This document shows positions 18,101-30,581 of a stretch of 30,581 nt of DNA, one piece after another. The notes beneath the pieces are model-generated. The model searched no databases. It was given only the letters and a program-made list of their open reading frames with translations, and was not told the origin of the DNA. This DNA is from Saccoglossus kowalevskii (Eukaryota > Hemichordata > Enteropneusta > Harrimaniidae), in assembly GCF_000003605.2 (NCBI RefSeq), contig NW_003106602.1, forward strand, positions 208,537 to 239,117, in the 5' to 3' direction. Made by a program: the position numbers and the translations under genes. Numbering within the stretch: position 1 is the stretch's first letter; every line of letters starts with the position of its first letter.

Positions 18101-21100
18101 GGGGGAGGCTTATAAACGGATAAAAGTTAAAACTCCTTCTGAGAGATAATTTATGCTAATTTATTCATAAACGTGATACTAGAGTGTAATCAGATAAATG
18201 ACTTGTTGTAAAATGCTGTAAGTTTGCAGGGGAGCTTATATTTGAGAAGGGGTTTATACTCAGACAACTACGATAGTTGGTAAAGAAAAGTACAGTCTAA
18301 AAGAAATTTTGAATAAAAACAAATTCTTTGCTTAGTAGCGAATGATCATGTTAGTTTAATTCTGTCATTCTATTTCAAAAGATAATACAAATGTTGATTA
18401 TTACTCGGTTGTGATTATAATAATGTACAAAAAATCAATTTATTGGTTTGTTGATATCCATATCAAATTCAACTTTGTTTCATTGTGAGAGAATTTTTCT
18501 TATTACATACAGTGGCTCCTCGCTAAATCACGGGTGTCGGGATCCAAGCAACAACCATGACTTATCGAGGGTCGCGACTTACCATATACATCCATGGGTT
18601 TGTTTATAGTGTGTTTACTCTATTGAAAAAAACGTCACGATCACGATTAATAAATACACAAGTTATAGTAGAATTGCAGGTTCGTGGGCACTTGGGAGTG
18701 AATTTTTTTTTTTTGCTTTTTATTATCTAAACAGTCTTGGCTATAGACTGTTAAAATTTTGTAGAATTGTGAATAGTGGAACATACTCAAAAAAACTATT
18801 TTAAAATATAGATAACAGGTGCAAACATTAGCAAGATTTAGCAAGGCTGTACATAAATAATAAAAAAAAAACATGGTGAAAAAAAAAAAATGACGGGATC
18901 TTGATACTTGATAAACTTGATACCCTGGCGAAGCATGTCTATTGTTTCACAACGACTGTCCCAGGGGATTTTCGTCTTCTCAATTTCTCAAGATAAACGT
19001 CCCAGGGATGTTTTGTGTACTAGAAGGGCATGTTTATTGGCAGCATTTCTTGTATTAATTTCCATTGCACAAAAAAAAGAAGAAGCAAATACTGTTACTG
19101 AAGCACAGAATTTGCATGAATTTTTCTTCCCAGCCATTCACGCAAACTGCAAACAGTCTTTTACCTCACCCATAGTTGTTGACACTTTGCAACCGCCTAG
19201 ATGGATGTATTGTGACGTATTTTGACCCCGGATTCTGACCTTGCTTTCCGGCTACATGTACCTTTCATACCAGTTCAATTTCCTTTCATTATTACATCCA
19301 AATGTCATGATATTTAATATTTAAAACCAAACTTTATTTCACAGTCACTTTAGTTTTCACTTTTCTAAAATTATTTTACTGATCAATAGACTTTTCACTC
19401 CCATCATGCAATCTCCCATAGTACTTCCGCAGACACAGCGTCGATCGCCATCATATCTACAAATAACTTCGCTCTCAGGAGCTGAGGAATAAACCAATTT
19501 TGACAGGAAACAGAAGCATGGTTTAGAAGCTAATTTTTTTAAAATCACTTTTGACCAAAAAAGCGCATTTTTGTGCATATTTTCAAACTACAGTGTCCAT
19601 AAAAAAAAAAAAAAATAACACAATTTTAAAATTCATACAATAAGCTTTCCGAAAATATATAGTTTATGGACAAGGGAGGTCATCTTGGTTTCCTAATTAT
19701 CTAATTAAAATACTTGTCAAGTAAACTGCATCTCTACCTTAATTGAAATGATAGAAACATATTTACAAATTGTATGTTGTATCTATCTGCGACTTTGCCG
19801 AAATTGTGACTTACCTAGGTGAGACTTAGCAAGGGGTCGCTGTATTAGTTGAAACTGTGTTCTTTGACCTGTTAGGTCAAACTGATTATTAACCAATCAT
19901 AACAGTGGTTGGGTGCCAGCCAATGATCTATCTCAATTAGCTCATACTTTGATTTTTTGGCATTGATGTTGGTGGAAAATGTCATAATTAGTCCCCGTTC
20001 GGACGAAGTCCGAAAACGGGGACTTATAATTCGGTCTCTGTCCGTGCTTCTGTGTGTCCATGCGTCCGTCCATCCGTCCGTCCGTCCGTCCGTCCGTCCG
20101 GCCGTCCGTCCGTCCGTCCATCCATCCGTCCGTCCGTCCGTCCAATTCTGTTCATTCTTTGCATGTGCCTAGTACTTTATGTGGGACATATGCACATGCA
20201 GTGGTTTAGCGATTCGATTCAAAATGGCCGACTGGCAGCCATCTTGTTTTTTGAAAATGTTGTATTTTGGACATGCTTTGTCAGTTTTCATTCAAACTTG
20301 GTACATAGATTATACATGTTAGGATACATGTCCATGACGATTTATTTCACAATTGGATCAAGGATGCCGACTGGCAGCCATCTTGTTTTTTGAAAATGTT
20401 GTATTTTGGACATGCTTTGTCAGTTTTCATTAAAACTTGGTACATAGATTATACATGTTAGGATACATGTCCATGACGATTTATTTCACAATTGGATCAA
20501 AGATGGCCGACTGGCAGCCATCTTGTTTTTTGAAAATGTTGTATTTTAGACATGCTTTGTCAGTTTTCATTCAAACTTGGTACATAGATTATACATGTTA
20601 GGATACATGTCCATGATGATTTATTTCACAATTGGATCAAAGATGGCCGACTGGCAGCCATCTTGTTTTTTGAAAATGTTGTATTTTGGACATGCTTTGT
20701 CAGTTTACATTCAAATTTAATACATAGATCATACATGTTAGGATACATGTCCCGACCATCCGCGAGTTCCTGAGTCCGTCCGTCCATCACTTTGTCCAGA
20801 GTCATATTTCAGAATCCTGTGGACCAATTCCGTTCATTCTTTGCATGTGCCTAGTACCTTATGTGGGACATATGCACATGCAGTGGTTTAGTGATTTGAT
20901 TCAAAATGGCCGACTGGCAGCCATCTTGTTTTTTGAAAATGTCATTCAAACTTGGTACATAGATTATACATGTTAGGATACATGTCCATGACGATTTATT
21001 TCGCAATTGGATCGAACATGGTCGACTGGCAGGCATCTTGTTTTTTTTTATGCGGTATCTTGGACGTGCTCTGTCAGTTTTCATTCAAATTTGGCACACA

Positions 21101-24100
21101 CATGTACTTTATACATGTTAGGATGCATGTCCATGACAATTTGTTTCAAAATCTGGTCAAGGATGACCGATTGACAGCCATCTGACTTTTTGGCCTTACT
21201 ACTATATTTCCACAATTTATGTTCCATTTTCATTCGTATTTGGCACATACATCATACATATCAGTGTGTTTCATAATCAGATCAAAGATGGTCGAATAAC
21301 GACTGTTTTTATTTTTGGCCATATTACTACTGCACGGAACACATGTTTTGATGTAAATAAACAATCTGTTGTATACGCCAATTGGAACTCAAGTTTCAAG
21401 AACACGCTCCCGATAATCCCTCCGCTTTAATATGACGAGCACAAAGAGAACTTTCAATAATTTAACGGGGACTGTGTCATTTTCAATGACTTGTTTTGTT
21501 TTTAAATCAGGAAATTATTAATTTTCAAAAGATAAACTGAGCATTGAATAAGCATTTAACACTTTTTACAGCGATAATGTCTCATGAGGGATTTTTTTAA
21601 AGAAGGGAACAGTGGCATAGTGCCCTCATGCCATGGCCATGCATCCCCTTACCCTTGGGAGCAGATCCTCTGGCAACCATAAAATTCTGATTGACCAGGG
21701 ATCACATGTGGCCACAGTCTTCAACTGTGATCTATCTGAGTAATTTAATAGAATGCTCCATTGGTAGGGAGAACCCTATCTCCCCACTTGGTGGCACCGC
21801 TGAATTGCAGTGCTCCCTCTTGCAGTTTTTTTCTAGAAGATGCCTTGGAATACAAAAAAGAACATAGGTAGCCATAATTGGCTACATTGCAGATAGGGAT
21901 ATACCGTAATTAACCATCAATATGGAAAACTTAACAGTTAGTAGGTATTACAGATGTGTAGTGTTGCATTAATGAATGTAAAAAAAAAAAGTTATCCTTT
22001 TTAGCTCCGCTGTCATCGCAGACGAGCCAGTGGAGCTGTTGGTATGGGGGTCTCTTTTGAACACCCACGATTTCTTAAGTTTAGCCTCAAAGATGTTTTT
22101 CCAATGAAATGCATGATCCTTATGAACACTATAAAAGTTCATAATTGCAACTGCAAGCAACTGTAACTCAAGTGCAATGTTCTCTAAATGACTGACTATG
22201 AATATTACAACCACAATGCCACTTTACTGATTCTTGTTCCATAATAATGAAGACAGCGGAGCTATTTCGACCGTCAGGTTGCTTGTCTTTTTTTCTCCTC
22301 ACAAAGTCCCTAGTAGGTAGTCATTTTTCTATCATTTCTATGTTATTTGTTATATAACAAGTCATTATACACAGTAGAATTTACTGTTTTATAAAAAACT
22401 GTATCTGCATTCGTAATTATTGGTAAAAATTTTTGAATTCTTGTAGAAAACAGCATGTCCTGTTGCTTTGATACTATACATATTGTTCATATTCTAATGA
22501 TGTCTTCAGTTCTTTAATTGAAATGTGCATTGCTAACAGCGGAGCTATCTCAGCTGACAGGCTGTTGTTTCACTTTGCAAAGTATGCACTTTAAGCAGTA
22601 CAGGATCACATCAACCTATACTACACATGGATCAATTACTACAATCGCTGTACTACCTTCGTGTTTACTTTACAGTTTTTTCAGGAAAACCTCATATTAT
22701 CATTAATAATTGAAATATTGCACCTGAATTATAATAAATATGTTATGAATATGTACAGACATATAAAATGAAAAAAAAATATTGTACATCAATAACCTGC
22801 CATCTGTGACCAAGCCATGATTGGGAATGGATTGATCACCTTGCCCCATGCACAAAACAATCTTTGTAACTGGGTCAGCAATCTTACAACTTTGAATTAA
22901 ATTGGTCATTACAAAAGAAATGTGACGTGGCGCTAAAGTAAAATTTTCTAATTTTAATGATTTGTTATATTTCTACAAATTTATTCAAGTTTCAATTTTT
23001 AGCTCCACTGTTGACTTTGCCGAGCGGAGCTTATCATATGAGTGATTGTCCGTCGCCATCCGTGTCAATGTTTTACTTTTTCGACTTCTTCTTGAAAACT
23101 ACAAGCCTGAATGCTTTGATACTTGGTATATATGTACCTTGAGTAGACCTCTCTTAGATTTGTTCATTTCATGATGATATCTTTAATTCTCTAATTCTCT
23201 AATTTTGATGAATATTTTTGAAATTTTTGGTAAAAAAGTTATATTTTCGTCTTCTTGTTGAAAACGGCAAGTCCAATTGCTTTGATATTACATATATAGG
23301 TACTACATGTGGACCTCTCTCAGATTTGTTCATTTTGTGATGATAACTTTAATTCTCTAATTTTAGTGAATATTTTTTTAATTTTTGGTAAAAAGTGATA
23401 TTTTTGACTTCTTGTTGAAAACCGCAAGTCTGATTGCTTTTATATTACATATATAGGTACTACATGTGGACAGATTTGTTAATTGCGTGGTGATATCTTC
23501 AATTATCTAATTTTGATGATTATTTTTGGTGAAAAGTGATATTTTTGAATTCTTGTTGAAAACAGCAAGTCTCCAAGTTCTGTTGCTTTGATACTATACA
23601 TATTGTTCATTTTCTAATGATATCTTCTGTTCTTTAATTGCAATGTGCATTGCTAACAGCGGAGCTATCTCAGCCGACAGGCTGCTTGTTTTACAATGCT
23701 TGCAATGAAATGGAAGGGAGGGAAAGAAAGATATACAAGTTAAAGGGGCACCTTCCAGTTAAGCTTAATTTCACAACAAATTTACTTTCTGGATTAAAAT
23801 AACAATGGATAACAAAAGATAGATTAACATTGTAAATAACATAAACAATAGTGTCCCATGATTCTTTGGTGCAATCCATGGGATTGAGCGGTTCCCCTTT
23901 AAAAGCATTCTGTCTACTGTAAAACCATTTAATTTCACTATTTTTATGTTTTGAACAATTTCACTGGGTTTTATTTACACAAACTTGCCAGGAAAACAAT
24001 AATTTTTACTGTTATATCACATGTTCACTTTTACGTATTTTACGTATCAGGGAAAATAACGAAACTGAAAACCAGTGAATAATGAATGCATTCAACAGTA

Positions 24101-27100
24101 TGTTGTTATCGTCGTTGTCGTTGTTATCAATCATGTTCTTTTCACATATCTTGCATGTTTATTAATAATTCTAAAACTATGGCTCCATTATCTATTCATG
24201 TGCATGCTATTGTTAGAATATGCTGTACTCTGAACTGTGGGTGATACAGGAACTATCTACACTGATTTCAAATGTCTAGTTACACTCCAAGAATTCAGCC
24301 ATTGTGTGCAAATTTTGTACAGCAGAAGGGAAGGTATGGACTTTGAAAGAATTCTGTCCATGTTATTGTTGTTAGAGTTGTTAACATTGCGTTTGGTTGC
24401 AATAACTGAAATTTTCTTACTAATCAGTCAGTATATAAAATCATAAAAGTTTAATTTTGAATACCTTGAATGTATATTTCTGAGATATTGCTGAATAATG
24501 TGGCTTTAAATTCTCTTTGGTTTAACCTGAGAATAATTGTATTGACAGTTTAAGTTAGTATGAAGAGAAGTAAATTATTTCTATTTAGCAAATGAGCACT
24601 GCTATGTTTTCCATAATGTTTGGAGGGGCTTACATGAAATGTATATTTGATTGTTTATTGTGTCTAATCAGATGCATGTGAACTACAGCTTATTTGTACA
24701 GTCAGTGAATGCTGGTAGAACAGTAATGTTAACAATGGACTATCCATTGATTGGTATATTTACATAACAGTGAATACTAACACATCACTGACAACATGCA
24801 CAAGGTTTCCCCAAATTTGCACCCTTACAAAATGATTAACAGCATGATTAATATGTTGTGCAGTAACATTGGTCAATAAATTGTAACATTTATAAGTATT
24901 TATTGTAATATGTATTAGAAAAAACATTGTGTTTACTCAACTTCAAAAAATGAGTGTAACTATCTCATTAGGACCCCCATCAAATCTACTTTGTTAGTGC
25001 CACATGTTTCAAATTTATCCTGGTGATTCATACAACACATAGGGTACTTCTTTACAATATGCATGAAGCAATACTTGTCCATGACAATTCAATTTGTGAT
25101 TCAATCAAAGACAACACACTTGCAGCAATTATGCTTTTTGCATAACAATTACCCTATAATGGGTACTTTACGTATTCGCCGATCAATGTACCCCTGAACC
25201 TGTTTAAGTTTAAAGGAGCGAGTAGTATATCGTCGGGGTGGTTATAATGATAGCTGTGTCATTAACAATGACTTGTTGTCTTTAAAATGAAGTTTCTCTT
25301 TGATATATGATAATATTAATTATTGTGATTATTGAATGCTAATCTTATTTTCTCACAGGGACAAGGATGATAACTGTGTGGAGTGTTCAGTGTGCAAGAA
25401 GACTTTCAAAAGTGTACCTGCCTTAAATGGGCATATGCGACTACATGGTGGCTACGAGAGGAACAAACCAGCAGATGGAAAGCCAAAAGAGCAAGATAGC
25501 CAAACACAAGACAGACAAGAACACAAGGAACAAATGGTAAGGCATCAACAACATTTGCAACAACAACAACAACAACAACAGCAGCAGCAACGACAACAAC
25601 AGCAGCAGCAACAGCAACAACCACAACAACAACATCAGCAGCAGCAGCAGCAGCAACAACAACAACAACAGCAACATCACCAACAGCTGCCACCACAGCA
25701 GTCTCATCTTGTAATCAAGGATGAGCAGTCAGGACATCAGCAACCGCAGCAACCACAGCAGCATTTTGAAACCCAGAATCAGCATGATTTAAAGCAGGAA
25801 GAGATAGAATACAAACAACAGATTGAACAGCAAAGACAACGATTAGAACAACAAAATCAACAACTACAGCTTGAGCAACAAAGGCAACAACAGCTGCAGT
25901 TGGAAGGACAGAGACAACAACAACTACACCTTGAACGACACAGGCAGCAGCAAACCCAACAAGCTCAGCAACAAGCTCAATTGGAAGAGCAGAGACAACA
26001 GCGTCAACTTCAACTTGAAGGTCACAGACTGCAACAGCAGCTTCAAATTGAAGGCCAGCGACAACAGCAGCAAATTCAACTTGAAGGCCATAGACAGCAG
26101 CAACAGCTTCAACTTGAAAGGCAACATCAAGTGCATAAAAAAACTGATCAGCTTGTAGAAGAACATGGAAAACAACACATAGAAATGGAGCAACATCAGC
26201 AGCTACACTTGGGAGCACTGCAACAACAACAGCGACAACAACAAATTGAAGAAAGGCAACAACTGCAAGTAGACAAGGCACAGCAATTACAAATTGAAGA
26301 ACAGAGACAGCAACTACAGTTGTTAGGGCAGCAGCAGCAACAACAACAGCAGCTACAACTGCAAATTGAACAAAGAAATCAACAACAACAACAACAACAA
26401 CAGCAGCAGCAACAACAACAACAGAGAAAACAACAGCAATTAGAGCAACAGAGACAACAGGTTGATCGTCAAAGACAACTGCAATTAGAACAACGAAGAC
26501 AAGAAATAGAATCCCAACTACAACAGCCTCTTCAAGAGTCGCAGTTTCCATTGTCAATGGATATGACTCCACCTCAGTTTCCCTCATCAACTCTGCCATT
26601 CAGCTTTGGTTTACAGGATTCCCACCAATTCCCCTCAAATATTAGTAACATGCCTATTAGCACAACTACGTCGGAAGCTATCCGACGATTTATCAAAACT
26701 GAAGTGCAAAAACCTGCGGAAAACATTCCAAACAATAACAATAATCCATTTTTATCCCAAAAAGAGTGTCTTTCATTAAATGGTGAGCCTCCGGTATTAA
26801 AGAGGGAAGTGAGCGAAGAAAACCCTATCAACCTGGCTGCTGCAATAAAAGATCAGTCAAAGAAATGTCAGGAAGACGAGAGCATAAATAAATCTAATAC
26901 ATCACAAAGTTCATCATCCCAAAAAGATGTGTTCCGCAATCCCGCTCATTTGCCGGCGAGTCCCGCCAAGAAGCGTCATCGTCCAGATCCAATTATCATC
27001 CCCTCTTATGTCAATACAGGAATGGCTGGAAGTCCACATATCTATCAGAGTCAAATGAGATCACCCAGGGACTTTGGTAAAACGATAAAAGGCATGACGC

Positions 27101-30026
27101 CTCCTCCGTATACTCCACCACCAATGCTGAGTCCAATTCGCAGTGGGTCTGGTCTCTACTTCAATCTTAACTCCAGCGGTAGCTTTGTTAGTCTCTTAAC
27201 ACCCAGGTCTGCTGCAGTCATACCTCCACTGACGCCGAAGACACCAAGTATGTTACAGTTACACAGGCAAAGTAAGCAATATTTCTGATAATATATCAAT
27301 CAATCTTGTCACAGAATGCATTTGCTTTTTGGTTTTGGTATTTCATTTTGTAGCAATTATTTACAATGATTCTGTTGCGTTTGTAGGTTCAACAGGTGTT
27401 GCGGAGGAATCTGAAATGGTGTATGTGGAACCGTAAGTTTTTTTTTTCCCTTCTAATTAGCATACTGTAGAATACTTTATTTTCGCTTGGAATTTATTTT
27501 CGCTATTTTTGCTGAAGGGATGATTCCGTGAAAATAAAATCCAGCAAATATACTTTTTTTCCTATATTTCACATTAAACTCATAAAAAATCAGTGAAAAT
27601 AAATTCCATAAAAAACGTCCAAAAAGCCTTTTCAGCGAAAATTAATTTTTTTCTTAAATTGAGATCATGTGTCATGCAGTAGTGAACATTTTTTGAAAAG
27701 GTATAAAATAAAATTTCAAATCAGTATCCCATAACCTTTATTTTCAAACTCCTAATTGATATGGGTGCATGGTGATAATGAGTGTTCATCTCAATTTCAA
27801 TTTCAATAGTAAAATAAATGTTGGTGAAGAATATCAAGCTCAGATCCCGGCTTTATGTGGTAAGTAGATTTTTATACTAGACATTGAATTGTTACTTGGT
27901 TGCTAAGTTAAGATTGTGTTATTGGTGGTCCCATTTTTAGCTCCCGTGTGTAGAGCACAACCAGTAGGCTAATGTGTGTCTTTGTATGGAAAAAGTGTGT
28001 CACCAATTAACCATATTCAACATGTTATTTTGTATTTTTGCAGCTGTTTGCACAAATGCATTGAAGGAATTGGTGTATTAGAGGCTTAAATAGTTGTACC
28101 GGATTCTGCTGTAAATTCGCCCAGGGCCGTTAAACAGCAGTTCGGGTTCATTAATGTGATTTTTTTGGAGAAAGATGCACGGTCTACTTTTTAATTCAGC
28201 TGGAAAAAAATGTATACAATTTTAGACTAGCTTCTGCAATAGTTTCTTTCGTTTTGGGTGGTCCAACTGCCGGTGTTGAAAATCGGCGTAGCTGAATTTT
28301 TAATGAAAATATAAGCCCCGTAAAAATATTTGATGATAATTTTTAGCTCCGCTGTCGACTTTGTCACTATGAGTGATTGTCCGTCGTCCATGTCAATGTT
28401 TTACTTTTTCGACTTCTTTTTGAAAACTACAAGCCTGAATGCTTTGACACTTTGTATAGGTACCTTGGGTAGACTTCTCTCAGATTTGTTAATTTCATGA
28501 TCATATCTTCAATTCTCTAATTTTGGTGAATATTTTTGTAATTTTTGGTAAAAAGTGATATTTTCGACTTCTTGTTAAAAACGGCAAGTCCACTTGCTTT
28601 GATATTACATATATAGGTACTACATGTGGACCTCTCTCAGATTTGTTCATTTTGTAATGATATCTTTAATTCTCTAATTTTGGTGAATATTTTTGGTAAA
28701 AAGTGATATTTTCGACTTCTTGTTAAAAACCACAAGTCCAATTGCTTTGATATTACATATATAGGTACTACATGTGGACCACTCTCAAATTTGTTTATTT
28801 CATGATGATATCTTCAATTCTCTAATTTTGATGAATATTTTTATCATTTTTGGTAAAAAGTGATATTTTTGACTTCTTGTTAATAACCACAATCATTTAT
28901 GGTGAAAAATGATATTTTTGAATTCTTGTTGAAAACAGCAAGTTGAGTCAACATCAAAGAATATTGAACTCGCTTCCCACAGGAGCACTTTCTAGCTACT
29001 CTTCTAGCATTGTGACATTATAACACTTTCTGAGAAATCTAAGGAGAAATATGAATGAATAATTCATGAAAGATAAAAACGAGTTTTACAGCAGTTAGCA
29101 AGCTAAGCATTCTCTATTGTGACTCTCTTCCTTGATGGTAATTTATAGAGAGATGTCTGTATTCATATCACCTAGGTACAAAGAATGATCTAAAAGCAGT
29201 ACCTGACAAAGAAACGTTAGTTTGGCACCCTAATGATGATGAATTATATGAAGAGGATCAAGGTATGTATGCGTTAATTTCCGCACTGGCTAATATGAAA
29301 GAATCTCAGTTTATCATCATTTAATTAACATTCTATACTACGTATAATCAGTATTGTGTATGTGAAGTGAGTTAATTTCATGAAAGTTAAATTTTCAGAA
29401 ATTTTTTTGCAGCAATGACAATTTCACTAAAGGTGCTAAAAATGCACAGGTCTCCTAACTTTCACTTTCCATAAAATGAATTTCTAACATCGAAAATCAA
29501 ATGGTTTTAATACAGTATTCCAGTTTATTGGTGGTTGCTGTGTTGCTCATAAGGAGATGTGTTTTTCGCTTTATTTACTTAGTTGACAGTTTTCTGGACT
29601 TTGCATGTTCTGCTGCTGTACCTGGTGGAGCGTCAAACTCTGAATATGCTGTACACTGTTTGCACAGGGCAAAAGGCGATATGGCGGTGAGTCTCAACGT
29701 TGGGTACTTCACCATTACTTGTTAATTAAAAATAGTCATATTTATCATTCACTACAATATATCAAAAACACTCAAAAGACTGCTTGATTCACAGATTGCT
29801 GGGTGATAATGTTTTTTACATTTTTACAGTCAGTATTAATACAACACAGATTTTTTTCACTAATTATTATATGCCATGCTGCTTTTTGTTACTATTTCAG
29901 TAATCACAAATTTTCATAATGTCTTACATGAATCTATTTACCCCTAATAGCTGGCGTTGAGTATGGTAATGACCAAGACTCCTGTGTTGACAGAATTGGA
30001 TCCAATGAAAGATTACCATTACACAT
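10888..30026 (+). CDS. TRERF1: TRERF1/ZNF541-like zinc-finger, ELM2 co-regulator (partial at 3')
   Basis: Nuclear chromatin regulator; vertebrate TRERF1, ZNF541 and MIDEAS scaffold the MiDAC HDAC1/2-DNTTIP1 deacetylase complex through ELM2-SANT. Coding exons: 10888-12127, 15677-15938, 16269-16817, 25359-27271, 27387-27432, 27810-27859, 29176-29262, 29583-29686, 29951-30026. All splice phases agree, giving about 1,442 residues before the window ends. Domains: C2H2 fingers at about 460-480, 488-508, 516-539 and 693-713; Gln-rich block 747-1077; KKRHRPDPIIIP at 1221; TPPPYTPPPMLSP at 1264; ELM2 from about 1338. The SANT domain is expected downstream. The start is the ATG at 10888, with an in-frame TGA upstream at 10837. 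Three clustered fingers plus one distant finger fit a pre-duplication relative of TRERF1 and ZNF541; which paralogue name suits best cannot be decided here. Confidence 0.88.
12128..15676 (+). other. Intron A-B of the zinc-finger gene
   Basis: 3.5 kb of AT-rich intron. Short open frames near 14330-14801 have no recognisable motif. There are poly-T and poly-G runs near 12697-12711 and a CA-rich stretch near 15579-15601. No element with clear ends was identified. Confidence 0.7.
15677..15938 (+). CDS. TRERF1: Zinc-finger gene exon B (fingers 1 and most of 2)
   Basis: The acceptor is CAATTTCAG and the donor is GTAAGT at 15939. A Ser/Pro/Lys-rich linker with a KKGRPRSG AT-hook-like motif precedes finger 1 (C460, C463, H476, H480). 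Finger 2 begins CQLCGKGFKRQDHL and is cut by the intron inside Leu501. The linker between the fingers, SDERKHV, takes the place of TGEKP. Confidence 0.92.
15939..16268 (+). other. Intron B-C
   Basis: A 330-base intron interrupting finger 2. No feature is seen within it. Confidence 0.8.
16269..16817 (+). CDS. TRERF1: Zinc-finger gene exon C (end of finger 2, finger 3)
   Basis: The acceptor is CATTTGCAG and the donor is GTAAGA at 16818. It completes finger 2 (H504, H508) and encodes finger 3, C516-X4-C521-X12-H534-X4-H539. The wider C-X4-C spacing with a PGCEKSY core resembles the GLI/ZIC class of finger. The rest is a low-complexity Gly/Pro/His-rich linker. Confidence 0.92.
18059..18258. repeat. 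Short inverted-repeat element with TATAAACCCC ends
   Basis: TATAAACCCC at 18059-18068 is matched by its exact complement GGGGTTTATA at 18249-18258. Related words, GGGAGGCTTATAAACGG (18104-18120) and GGGGAGCTTATATT (18229-18242), lie inside. This looks like a 200-bp MITE. Confidence 0.5.
18510..19842. mobile_element. Tigger/pogo-like DNA transposon, non-autonomous or decayed
   Basis: The left end CAGTGGCTCCTCGCTAAATC (18510-18529) and the right end, read in complement as CAGCGACCCCTTGCTAAGTC from 19842, are inverted copies matching at 15 of 20 positions. Both are flanked by TA (18508-18509 and 19843-19844), the Tc1/mariner/pogo target duplication. The end sequence strongly resembles Tigger termini, which begin CAGTGGTCCCTCGCTA. 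The 1,333-bp interior has no recognisable DDE transposase; the longest open frame (18908-19225) lacks any catalytic motif. Confidence 0.65.
19863..19881. repeat. Palindrome of nuclear-receptor half-sites
   Basis: TTTGACCT-GTT-AGGTCAAA is an 8-bp perfect inverted repeat carrying AGGTCA half-sites in everted orientation with a 3-base spacer. It could bind a nuclear receptor dimer or be a chance hairpin. Confidence 0.3.
19990..21498 (+). repeat. Snap-back repeat family 1, full copy
   Basis: The 5' end folds into a long hairpin: AGTCCCCGTT-CGGAC / GTCCG-AA-AACGGGGACT (19990-20024). A GTCC/CGTC microsatellite follows (20063-20144). The body has about eight tandem units marked by GGCCGACTGGCAGCCATCTTG; the first four start about 140 bp apart, and later ones are irregular. 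A second copy of the leader (CATTCTTTGCATGTGCCTAG) sits at about 20833. The 3' end repeats AACGGGGACT (21464-21473), then a small hairpin GTCATT-TTC-AATGAC, then TTGTTTTG. No protein-coding capacity was found. Confidence 0.65.
20063..20144 (+). repeat. CGTC tetranucleotide microsatellite
   Basis: Nearly uninterrupted CGTC/CATC units inside the leader of the family-1 element. It produces low-complexity open frames on both strands that are not genes. Confidence 0.9.
22001..22287 (+). repeat. Snap-back repeat family 2, short copy
   Basis: The 5' hairpin is AGCTCCGCTG (22003-22012) with CCAGTGGAGCT (22027-22037). The 3' end carries ACAGCGGAGCT at 22253-22263, followed by CGAC..GTTG and CTTGTC. 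It lacks the tandem body of the longer copies, so the termini alone define it. Confidence 0.5.
22410..22570 (+). repeat. Snap-back repeat family 2, 5'-truncated copy
   Basis: It shares the last body unit and the 3' end with the full copy at 22997-23692, including GCATTGCTAACAGCGGAGCT and the small hairpin CAGCTGACAGGCTG. The left boundary is approximate. Confidence 0.5.
22997..23692 (+). repeat. Snap-back repeat family 2, full copy
   Basis: The 5' hairpin is AGCTCCACTG (23001-23010) with CGAGCGGAGCT (23021-23031), then a CCGTCG-containing leader. The body has about four units of roughly 130-165 bp, each opening near (A/G)(A/C/T)TTCTTGTTGAAAAC and containing TTCTCTAATTTT. The 3' end is ACAGCGGAGCT (23656-23666), the small hairpin CAGCC-GACA-GGCTG, then CTTGTTTT. 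It is non-coding and similar in style to repeats seen in other marine invertebrate genomes. Confidence 0.6.
23740..23902. repeat. Second TTAA-bounded inverted-repeat element
   Basis: The left end is TTAA-AGGGGCACC (23740-23752). The right end, in complement, is TTAA-AGGGGAACC, running leftward from 23902. The interior is about 155 bp and non-coding. It shares the TTAA-AGGG layout with the element at 4577-4694, which suggests the same mobilising transposase. Confidence 0.45.
23915..24085. repeat. TACTGTAAAA-type MITE-like repeat
   Basis: It begins TACTGTAAAACCATTTAATTTC and closes near a loosely complementary GAAACTGAAAACCAGTGAATAATG. The TACTGTARAA start recurs at 27463. Ends are imperfect and boundaries approximate. 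Confidence 0.3.
24990..25280 (+). repeat. Decayed copy of snap-back family 1
   Basis: Body words of family 1 are recognisable in degraded form (TTGTCCATGACAATTCAATTTGTGATTCAATCAAAG..). The 3' hairpin survives as GTCATT-AAC-AATGAC-TTGTTGTC (25258-25280). It ends about 80 bases before the acceptor of exon D, so an old insertion lies very close to a splice site. Confidence 0.45.
25359..27271 (+). CDS. TRERF1: Zinc-finger gene exon D (finger 4, Gln-rich block, family motifs)
   Basis: The acceptor is TTCTCACAG and the donor is GTAAGC at 27272. Finger 4 is C693-X2-C696-X12-H709-X3-H713, with the family signature ALNGHMRLHGG. Residues 747-1077 are mostly Gln with Arg, Leu and Glu, coded by mixed CAA and CAG. 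Four consensus SUMO sites (psi-K-x-E) occur: K804, K829, K1130 and K1165. Near the end are KKRHRPDPIIIP (1221-1232) and TPPPYTPPPMLSP (1264-1276), both recognised from TRERF1-family proteins. Reading past the donor meets a stop at 27286, so splicing is required. Confidence 0.93.
25546..26538 (+). repeat. CAA/CAG-rich low-complexity tract in coding sequence
   Basis: About 1 kb of interleaved CAA and CAG codons, producing shadow open frames (poly-Val/Ala and poly-Leu) on the opposite strand. It contains the 33-bp tandem array at 25987-26118. Confidence 0.9.
25987..26118 (+). repeat. 33-bp tandem repeat coding an 11-residue unit
   Basis: Four consecutive 33-bp units (starting 25987, 26020, 26053 and 26086) encode variants of GHRQQQQLQLE. 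An 11-residue period with Leu/Ile at fixed places is compatible with a hendecad coiled coil. Confidence 0.75.
27387..27432 (+). CDS. TRERF1: Zinc-finger gene exon E
   Basis: The acceptor is GTTTGTAG and the donor is GTAAGT at 27433. It encodes STGVAEESEMVYVEP, the approach to ELM2; 46 nt, with phases agreeing on both sides. Confidence 0.85.
27433..27809 (+). other. Intron E-F
   Basis: A 377-base intron. From 27463 it carries a TACTGTAGAA-type repeat with recurring TTATTTTCGC and GAAAATAAA words in opposite orientations, probably another MITE relic. Confidence 0.5.
27810..27859 (+). CDS. TRERF1: Zinc-finger gene exon F (start of ELM2)
   Basis: The acceptor is TTTCAATAG and the donor is GTAAGT at 27860. 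It encodes KINVGEEYQAQIPALC, the diagnostic opening of the ELM2 domain. Confidence 0.93.
27860..29175 (+). other. Intron F-G
   Basis: A 1.3-kb intron containing a 3'-truncated family-2 repeat (28341-28945). The remainder shows no coding or structured signal. Confidence 0.75.
28341..28945 (+). repeat. Snap-back repeat family 2, 3'-truncated copy
   Basis: It starts TTTTAGCTCCGCTG (28341-28354) and continues into the same leader (GAGTGATTGTCCGTCG) and tandem body as the copy at 22997. The second arm of the 5' hairpin (CGAGCGGAGCT) is deleted here, and the 3' terminal module is missing after the last unit. Confidence 0.55.
29176..29262 (+). CDS. TRERF1: Zinc-finger gene exon G (ELM2)
   Basis: The acceptor is ATCACCTAG and the donor is GTATGT at 29263. 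It encodes TKNDLKAVPDKETLVWHPND followed by DELYEEDQ, with the ELM2-type LVW-P motif. Confidence 0.92.
29263..29582 (+). other. Intron G-H
   Basis: A 320-base intron with no feature seen. Confidence 0.75.
29583..29686 (+). CDS. TRERF1: Zinc-finger gene exon H (ELM2 core)
   Basis: The acceptor is TTTACTTAG and the donor is GTGAGT at 29687. It encodes the ELM2 helices VDSFLDFACSAAVPGG and SEYAVHCLHRAKGDMA, the region that in related proteins contacts HDAC1/2. Confidence 0.93.
29951..30026 (+). CDS. TRERF1: Zinc-finger gene exon I (end of ELM2)
   Basis: The acceptor is CCCCTAATAG and the donor is GTAAGT at 30027. It encodes LALSMVMTKTPVLTELDPMK and DYHYT, the linker that leads into SANT in this family. 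The protein continues beyond the window. Confidence 0.9.
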
Positions 30027-30395
30027 GTAAGTTTATTAGCGATGACACATCAACATTGTTGAATGCAGTGGTTGCTGAAAAGTTGTATTCCTACTTTGTT
30101 TTATTTATATGCAGATAACATCCCACTGATTATTGTGATCACCGTGAGAAAATGATAAAATTATTTCTTTTGGAAACAAATCCTGAAATATGGCACTGAA
30201 GCTAGCCTGCACTGAAGGGTCAAGGTTGTCTAATCATCAAATCAAACTTAAATTTCATTGTTGTAATTACTCAAAACTACTTTATTTTAGGAGGGACTTC
30301 TAAATTCAATTTCAGGATTCTTTTGAATTTTGAAGATTTCTCATGAACTGAACAAAATTAAATCACTTTTTAAATTTATTAATAAATAAATTTTT
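30027..30395 (+). other. Start of the intron after exon I
   Basis: Plain AT-rich intron sequence with no recognised feature before the minisatellite begins. Confidence 0.7.
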
Positions 30396-30581
30396 TCTAT
30401 GAATCTCACAAAGTGGGAATGCTCACAGAGGTCAGTGAGAGATTTTCTATGGATCTCACAAAGTGGGAATGCTCACAGGGGTCAGTGAGTGATTTTCTAT
30501 GGATCTCACAAAGTGGGAATGCTCACAGAGGTCAGTGAGAGATTTTCTATGGATCTCACAAAGTGGGAATGCTCACAGGGG
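30396..30581. repeat. 50-bp minisatellite, running off the window
   Basis: Units start at 30396, 30446, 30496 and 30546 with almost no divergence. Two variants alternate: CAGAGGTCAGTGAGAGA and CAGGGGTCAGTGAGTGA. The true repeat is therefore a 100-bp dimer. The array is cut by the window edge, so its full length is unknown. Confidence 0.9.

Follow-up and report, generated by a model that had tools for sequence, protein, structure and literature searches.

Two repeat families of Saccoglossus kowalevskii with the terminal plan of non-autonomous Helentrons

Results

Anatomy of the two families in the window

A stretch of 30,581 nucleotides from the hemichordate Saccoglossus kowalevskii (NCBI RefSeq assembly GCF_000003605.2, contig NW_003106602.1, positions 208,537 to 239,117 of the forward strand; hereafter the window) was found to contain complete copies of two repeat families, referred to as family 1 and family 2. 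With a probability of about 94%, both are Helentron-associated interspersed elements (HINEs), that is, non-autonomous Helentron/Helitron2-type rolling-circle transposons moved by the protein of an autonomous Helentron. The families are assigned to the HINEs because the published plan of these elements is matched part by part. As described in PMC7492417 and PMC4067079, this plan runs from a 5' subterminal inverted repeat (subTIR) with a complementary internal repeat (IR) through a microsatellite, often of GTCY/GTCC, and central satellite-like repeats to a 3' subTIR and a palindrome, and insertion takes place at TT without duplication.

In each family, a subTIR of 10-11 bp, within the approximately 8-15 bp typical of HINEs, stands at the 5' start with its local complementary IR, and a 3' subTIR complementary to the 5' one precedes a palindrome near the 3' end (Table 1). 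Central tandem repeats, a frequent rather than obligatory part of HINEs, are present in both families, and the equally optional microsatellite leader is full in family 1 and a mere trace in family 2. An earlier note, made from the letters of the window alone, had described a leader with GTCC or CCGTCG words in both; this stands for family 1 (microsatellite 20063-20143) and holds only as a trace for family 2. The same note had proposed bodies of tandem units of roughly 130-165 bp, which agrees with the 139-140 bp of family 1 and the 150-166 bp of family 2, and every part it had named was located again at the same place or a few bases away. Its view of the families as unrelated in sequence also held, as nothing common beyond chance was found between them (best blastn E 0.13). 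The sole stop-to-stop frame of at least 110 amino acids in both window copies (19992-20393) spans the family 1 microsatellite and repeats, and both copies are apparently non-coding, as is the case for HINEs.

Table 1. Coordinates of the HINEs, their parts and related features in the window
Feature	Position	Strand	Evidence or remarks
Family 1 HINE, complete copy	19990..21495	+	Genome copies start at query position 1 and stop at 1506-1509; aligned boundaries; empty sites of two other copies
Family 1 5' subTIR (ATIR) AGTCCCCGTT	19990..19999	+	Plan scan; arm comparison across copies
Family 1 internal complement (IR) AACGGGGACT, closes 5' hairpin	20015..20024	+	Plan scan; folding z -5.9
Family 1 GTCC/CGTC microsatellite leader	20063..20143	+	Period 4, 20.2 copies
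Family 1 central satellite-like tandem repeats, unit 139-140 bp	20219..20752	+	Decayed units on to about 21317
Family 1 3' subTIR AACGGGGACT	21464..21473	+	Plan scan; aligned copies
Family 1 3' palindrome GTCATTTTCAATGAC and end CTTGTT	21476..21495 (palindrome 21476-21490, CTTGTT 21490-21495)	+	Aligned copies; exact 3' ends genome-wide
Short HINE with family 2 subTIRs (22003-22013, 22253-22263) and different interior	22003..22287	+	Interior without matches in 12 copies compared
3' half of family 2 copy (second 3' end, downstream of first)	22410..22572	+	
Family 2 HINE, complete copy	23001..23690	+	Many genome copies span query 1-3 to 693-696; aligned boundaries; empty sites of other copies
Family 2 5' subTIR AGCTCCACTGT	23001..23011	+	Aligned copies, most of which read AGCTCCGCTGT
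Family 2 internal complement (IR) GAGCGGAGCT	23022..23031	+	Plan scan; aligned copies
Family 2 central tandem repeats, unit 150-166 bp	23078..23572	+	
Family 2 3' subTIR ACAGCGGAGCT	23656..23666	+	Aligned copies
Family 2 3' palindrome CAGCCGACAGGCTG and end CTTGTT	23671..23690 (palindrome 23671-23684, CTTGTT 23685-23690)	+	Aligned copies; exact 3' ends genome-wide
Old decayed family 1 3' remnant	25071..25283	+	Palindrome (GTCATTAACAATGAC) and CTTGTT still there
Uninterrupted copy of dispersed repeat	27512..27647	.	Natural empty site of family 2 L056 and, on the other strand, of family 1 L028 and L023
Family 2 copy, 5' start kept	28337..28943	+	Internal complement and 3' end gone

Both strands of the window were scanned for an arm, its local complement, a distant complement, a palindrome and TTGTTTT in this order. 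The plan was matched 13 times, with overlaps, on the forward strand, never on the reverse strand, and never in 40 dinucleotide shuffles. Four of the 13 matches join the 5' end of a neighbouring element at 22002 to the 3' end of family 2.

Copies and conserved ends in the genome

Both families are multicopy in their own genome (an assembly of 572,110,611 bases in 4830 contigs) and have sharp ends, which bears out the earlier note in treating them as mobile elements. The search returned 74 matches for family 1, from 40 scored of 2322 first-look candidates, and 67 for family 2, from 40 scored of 4485. Additionally, exact 3' ends numbered 449 for family 1 (26-mer) and 475 for family 2 (28-mer) genome-wide, with zero hits for either reversed-pattern control, and viral contigs scanned for three end or body patterns gave no match to any of them.

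Boundaries were aligned in 21 copies per family, comprising the window copy and 20 high-scoring copies rather than a random sample. Within the element, most columns were conserved in nearly all copies, and beyond both ends conservation was at background. The modules are therefore the ends of the elements, as had been proposed: no copy set extended the conserved sequence past them, and the 3' palindrome and CTTGTT were retained. The conserved end TTGTTTT of the earlier note needs correction to CTTGTT, which was exact in 20/21 copies of family 1 and 19/21 of family 2; the following base was T in 10/21 and 16/21, respectively, and further Ts were not reliably conserved.

The 5' and 3' subTIRs differed by no more than one mismatch in 12 of the 16 scored copies of family 1 and 15 of the 19 of family 2, a scoring that leaves out L041 as well as L012 and L015 of family 1 (0 and 1 mismatches by eye). 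The IR was lost in some copies, for example in L050 and in the window copy at 28337-28943. From end to end, the span is 967-2301 bp in 20 copies of family 1, including two whose start is decayed, and 658-718 bp in 20/21 copies of family 2.

Insertion sites

The bases before the first arm were mostly TTATT in family 1 and TTTTT in family 2, and T occupied position -5 in 17/18 and 20/20 aligned starts, respectively. This 5' boundary table was built without L021, L022 and L027 of family 1 and L050 of family 2, where the best match was absent or short of the first three bases; the start of L050 is nevertheless present, with its IR missing.

For the identification of empty sites, the joined flanks of 41 copies were compared with the window and the fetched loci. 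Uninterrupted relatives were found for six, namely L056, L046, L052 and L043 of family 2 and L028 and L023 of family 1. Among the others, 30 had no spanning match, and four that overlapped the element's own ends (L010, L027, L045, and L055) were set aside together with a weak repeat match (L014). No target-site duplication was seen in the six comparisons. L056, L043, L028, and L023 join cleanly, with no base gained or lost, when cut at the subTIR and after CTTGTT or one to two Ts earlier. The empty counterpart of L056 lies in the window itself (27512-27605). Insertion into T-rich DNA (T-T) without duplication, as in HINEs, was observed, with six of 41 sites usable and four of these clean.

Since the empty sites also contain the Ts that precede the first arm, these are best assigned to the target, which would then read TTTTT or TTATT with T or C as the next base. 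The boundaries in Table 1 are fixed to within two Ts in either family; the TT before and the Ts after family 1, and the TTTT at 22997-23000 before family 2, were taken as target. As against the element bounds of the earlier note, the TTTT at 22997-23000 is best left out of the element. With a cut four bases before the subTIR and the last T of CTTGTT assigned to the right flank, the joined flanks fell short of their relatives by 3-6 bases. An element start a few bases before the subTIR was rejected, as cuts of 0-5 and 0-6 bases assign those Ts to the target.

Insertions into other HINEs were also observed. L046 is a family 2 element within the T-run of a family 1 element, a run that is uninterrupted in 15 different family 1 copies. 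In L033/L040, a family 1-type element begins directly at the TT that ends a family 2 copy; the other end of the family 1-type element disappears into a run of Ns. In L033 (G000:C2075, after position 2188, reverse strand), the body of this family 1-type element is diverged (CGGCCATTTT motifs) and its 5' hairpin near-identical.

A Helentron locus in the genome

Scoring of all 11 candidates in the same genome gave eight matches to the Helitron_like_N model, and 14 control genomes had none. Contig C2261 (3.16 Mb) has a series of consecutive open stretches that matched Rep/Helitron_like_N (PF14214, 3.8e-31), PIF1 (3.7e-24), and Exo_endo_phos (5.1e-12). This locus was read as a Helentron because a Rep with a PIF1 helicase and an endonuclease is the combination by which Helentrons are defined in the accounts of PMC4067079 and PMC5148889.

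Proposed mechanism of transposition

The Rep/helicase/endonuclease protein of an autonomous Helentron would nick the element and peel off one strand, beginning at the 5' end as identified by its subTIR hairpin, and copying would halt at the 3' signal composed of the 3' subTIR, the palindrome and CTTGTT. The copy, single-stranded or circular, would then be inserted into T-rich DNA following TTTTT or TTATT, and the target site would not be duplicated. By pairing with the 5' subTIR, the 3' subTIR would open the hairpin at the 5' end and signal where the copy stops. A proposal of 2013 already has the pairing of two asymmetric terminal inverted repeats (ATIRs) open the 5' hairpin and set the replication endpoint (PMC3627910); the 'snap-back' end pairing put forward from the window is a rediscovery of what that paper had in print. 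Exact head-to-tail joins are rare, with two in family 1 and two in family 2; these joins and L045 are the only footprints that may bear on the predicted rolling-circle or circular intermediate. Molecules with joined ends have been described from a Helitron2-like element of a fungus (PMC5148889). Since only the ends would be needed in cis, unrelated interiors, here two different satellite-like arrays, could ride on one machine. The suggestion of the earlier note that one shared mechanism, independent of sequence, mobilises both families fits this picture as far as the interiors are concerned.

Comparison with known elements

The Pearl elements of bivalves have central repeats between fixed end modules, as do families 1 and 2, a likeness by description and not by sequence. 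Pearl has been re-filed to the non-autonomous Helentrons (PMC7492417). The Cg_HINE of Crassostrea gigas, as described in the same paper, shares with the two families the 5' subTIR and IR, the GTCY/GTCC microsatellite, the satellite-like central repeats, the 3' subTIR and palindrome, the TT insertion without duplication, and the insertion into other repeats (PMC7492417); this likeness rests on the plan, not on a comparison of sequences, and differs in that family 2 is nearly without a microsatellite. DINE-1 / HINE-Mo elements and Helentrons are similarly described with subTIRs, an IR, a 3' stem-loop, and a T-rich target left without modification (PMC4067079). In that description, an autonomous partner is tied to DINE-1 / HINE-Mo via common ends, whereas families 1 and 2 are not so tied.

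The definition of Helitron2 calls for asymmetric repeats as well as hairpins at either end, and the Chlamydomonas examples given are inserted after TTTT (PMC3627910). Shared features include ATIRs of 8-15 bp, a 5' hairpin formed from the 5' ATIR, insertion after TTTT, and a 3' ATIR upstream of a hairpin that lies 20-30 bp from the end (PMC3627910). Helitron2 proper is characterized as lacking an endonuclease (PMC4067079), unlike the C2261 locus, which has one.

Alternative explanations and contrary evidence

Multicopy elements that are short and apparently non-coding, with short inverted repeats close to either end, may also be cut-and-paste miniature inverted-repeat transposable elements of a DDE transposon, under which Pearl and DINE-1-like elements were first filed. 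The repeats of families 1 and 2 are asymmetric, however, lying at the 5' start and approximately 30 bp inside the 3' end, before the palindrome. Symmetric terminal inverted repeats with a duplication were not found, the six empty sites being free of any, and such an origin is very improbable. A 3' hairpin near the end and the missing duplication would equally suit canonical Helitron1 elements. Judged by the criteria laid out in PMC5148889, both families depart from these: their ends are neither 5'-TC nor CTRR-3', their target is T-rich and not A-T, and their 5' hairpin contains an asymmetric repeat. Helitron1 is left with hardly any likelihood.

A new non-Helitron class with convergent 'snap-back' ends would be in keeping with two families that share no sequence beyond chance and with the failure to find an autonomous partner with the same termini. 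Its probability is nonetheless minimal, as published HINEs and Helitron2 have the same modules in the same order and the same target preference, and the matching type of enzyme is encoded in the genome. The earlier note had recognised no named class and had invoked convergence. The terminal plan is, however, the one that defines Helitron2/Helentron and HINEs in published descriptions (PMC3627910, PMC4067079, and PMC7492417), and the terminal plan of this one known element type accounts for both families. The common hairpin-and-end layout is a published hallmark of the HINE type and makes no new class, and the exact families may already be deposited in Repbase. A reading from structure alone can rediscover the Helentron end plan. 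The analysis adds two abundant HINE families of one eukaryotic genome, both well bounded and with natural empty sites.

Several observations weigh against the assignment to Helentron-driven HINEs. In a folding test with 200 shuffles per part, where shuffles folding at least as well were counted, the 5' hairpins of family 1 (0/200) and of the neighbour at 22001 (2/200) stood out. The 5' hairpin of the family 2 window copy (32/200) and the four 3' ends (9, 12, 15, and 22 of 200) showed no clear excess. Folding energy was therefore weak for most parts, and conservation across copies had to decide. Among the empty sites, the L046 junction is one G short of its relative, L052 is a poor fit, and L028 and L023 lie at the identical point of one repeat and may not be independent. 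Additionally, no autonomous element with family 1 or family 2 termini was found. Ten stretches around Rep hits contained family ends in L067 only, where two of them, apparently of separate elements, both lie upstream of the Rep fragment, and a looser scan of loci with Rep and helicase had the same outcome. The 3' side of the C2261 Helentron enters a run of Ns, so that its termini are not readable, and a search for subTIR pairs around it yielded four candidates, all of them weak and without a suitable palindrome and tail. Relatives of the helicase are scarce and in most cases decayed (11 matches after scoring of all 16 candidates); the next-best match is 59% identical and has 11 stops.

Tandem 3' ends and satellite-like arrays

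In L042 (G000:C2726:42700-45030), four family 2 3' ends stand in tandem 142 bp apart, and a fifth follows after 143 bp. All of them include subTIR, palindrome, and CTTGTT. The window likewise has two successive family 2-type 3' ends, at 22253 and 22536. The spacing in L042 was the least expected detail of the analysis; it may be relevant to the way satellite arrays are built in such elements, and the tandem 3' ends offer modest material on how HINEs gain them. It is conceivable, if rather unlikely, that these arrays are built when rolling-circle copying runs past the 3' termination signal; skipping and re-initiation, repeated beside the 3' end, could then give rise to the central repeats.

Other features of the window

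Besides the complete copies, the window includes further HINE pieces (Table 1); the start of the short HINE at 22003-22287 was given as about 22001-22003 in the plan scan and the folding test. At 27936-27985, TTTTTAGCTCCCGTGT resembles a 5' start from another HINE family whose subTIR is related, and no matching 3' end was seen nearby. A long glutamine-rich (CAG/CAA) open frame at 25336-27288 opens with a zinc-finger-like stretch and is perhaps an exon of a host gene. At 30393-30578, a tandem repeat with a unit of 50 bp (3.7 copies, 96% matches) reaches the end of the window.

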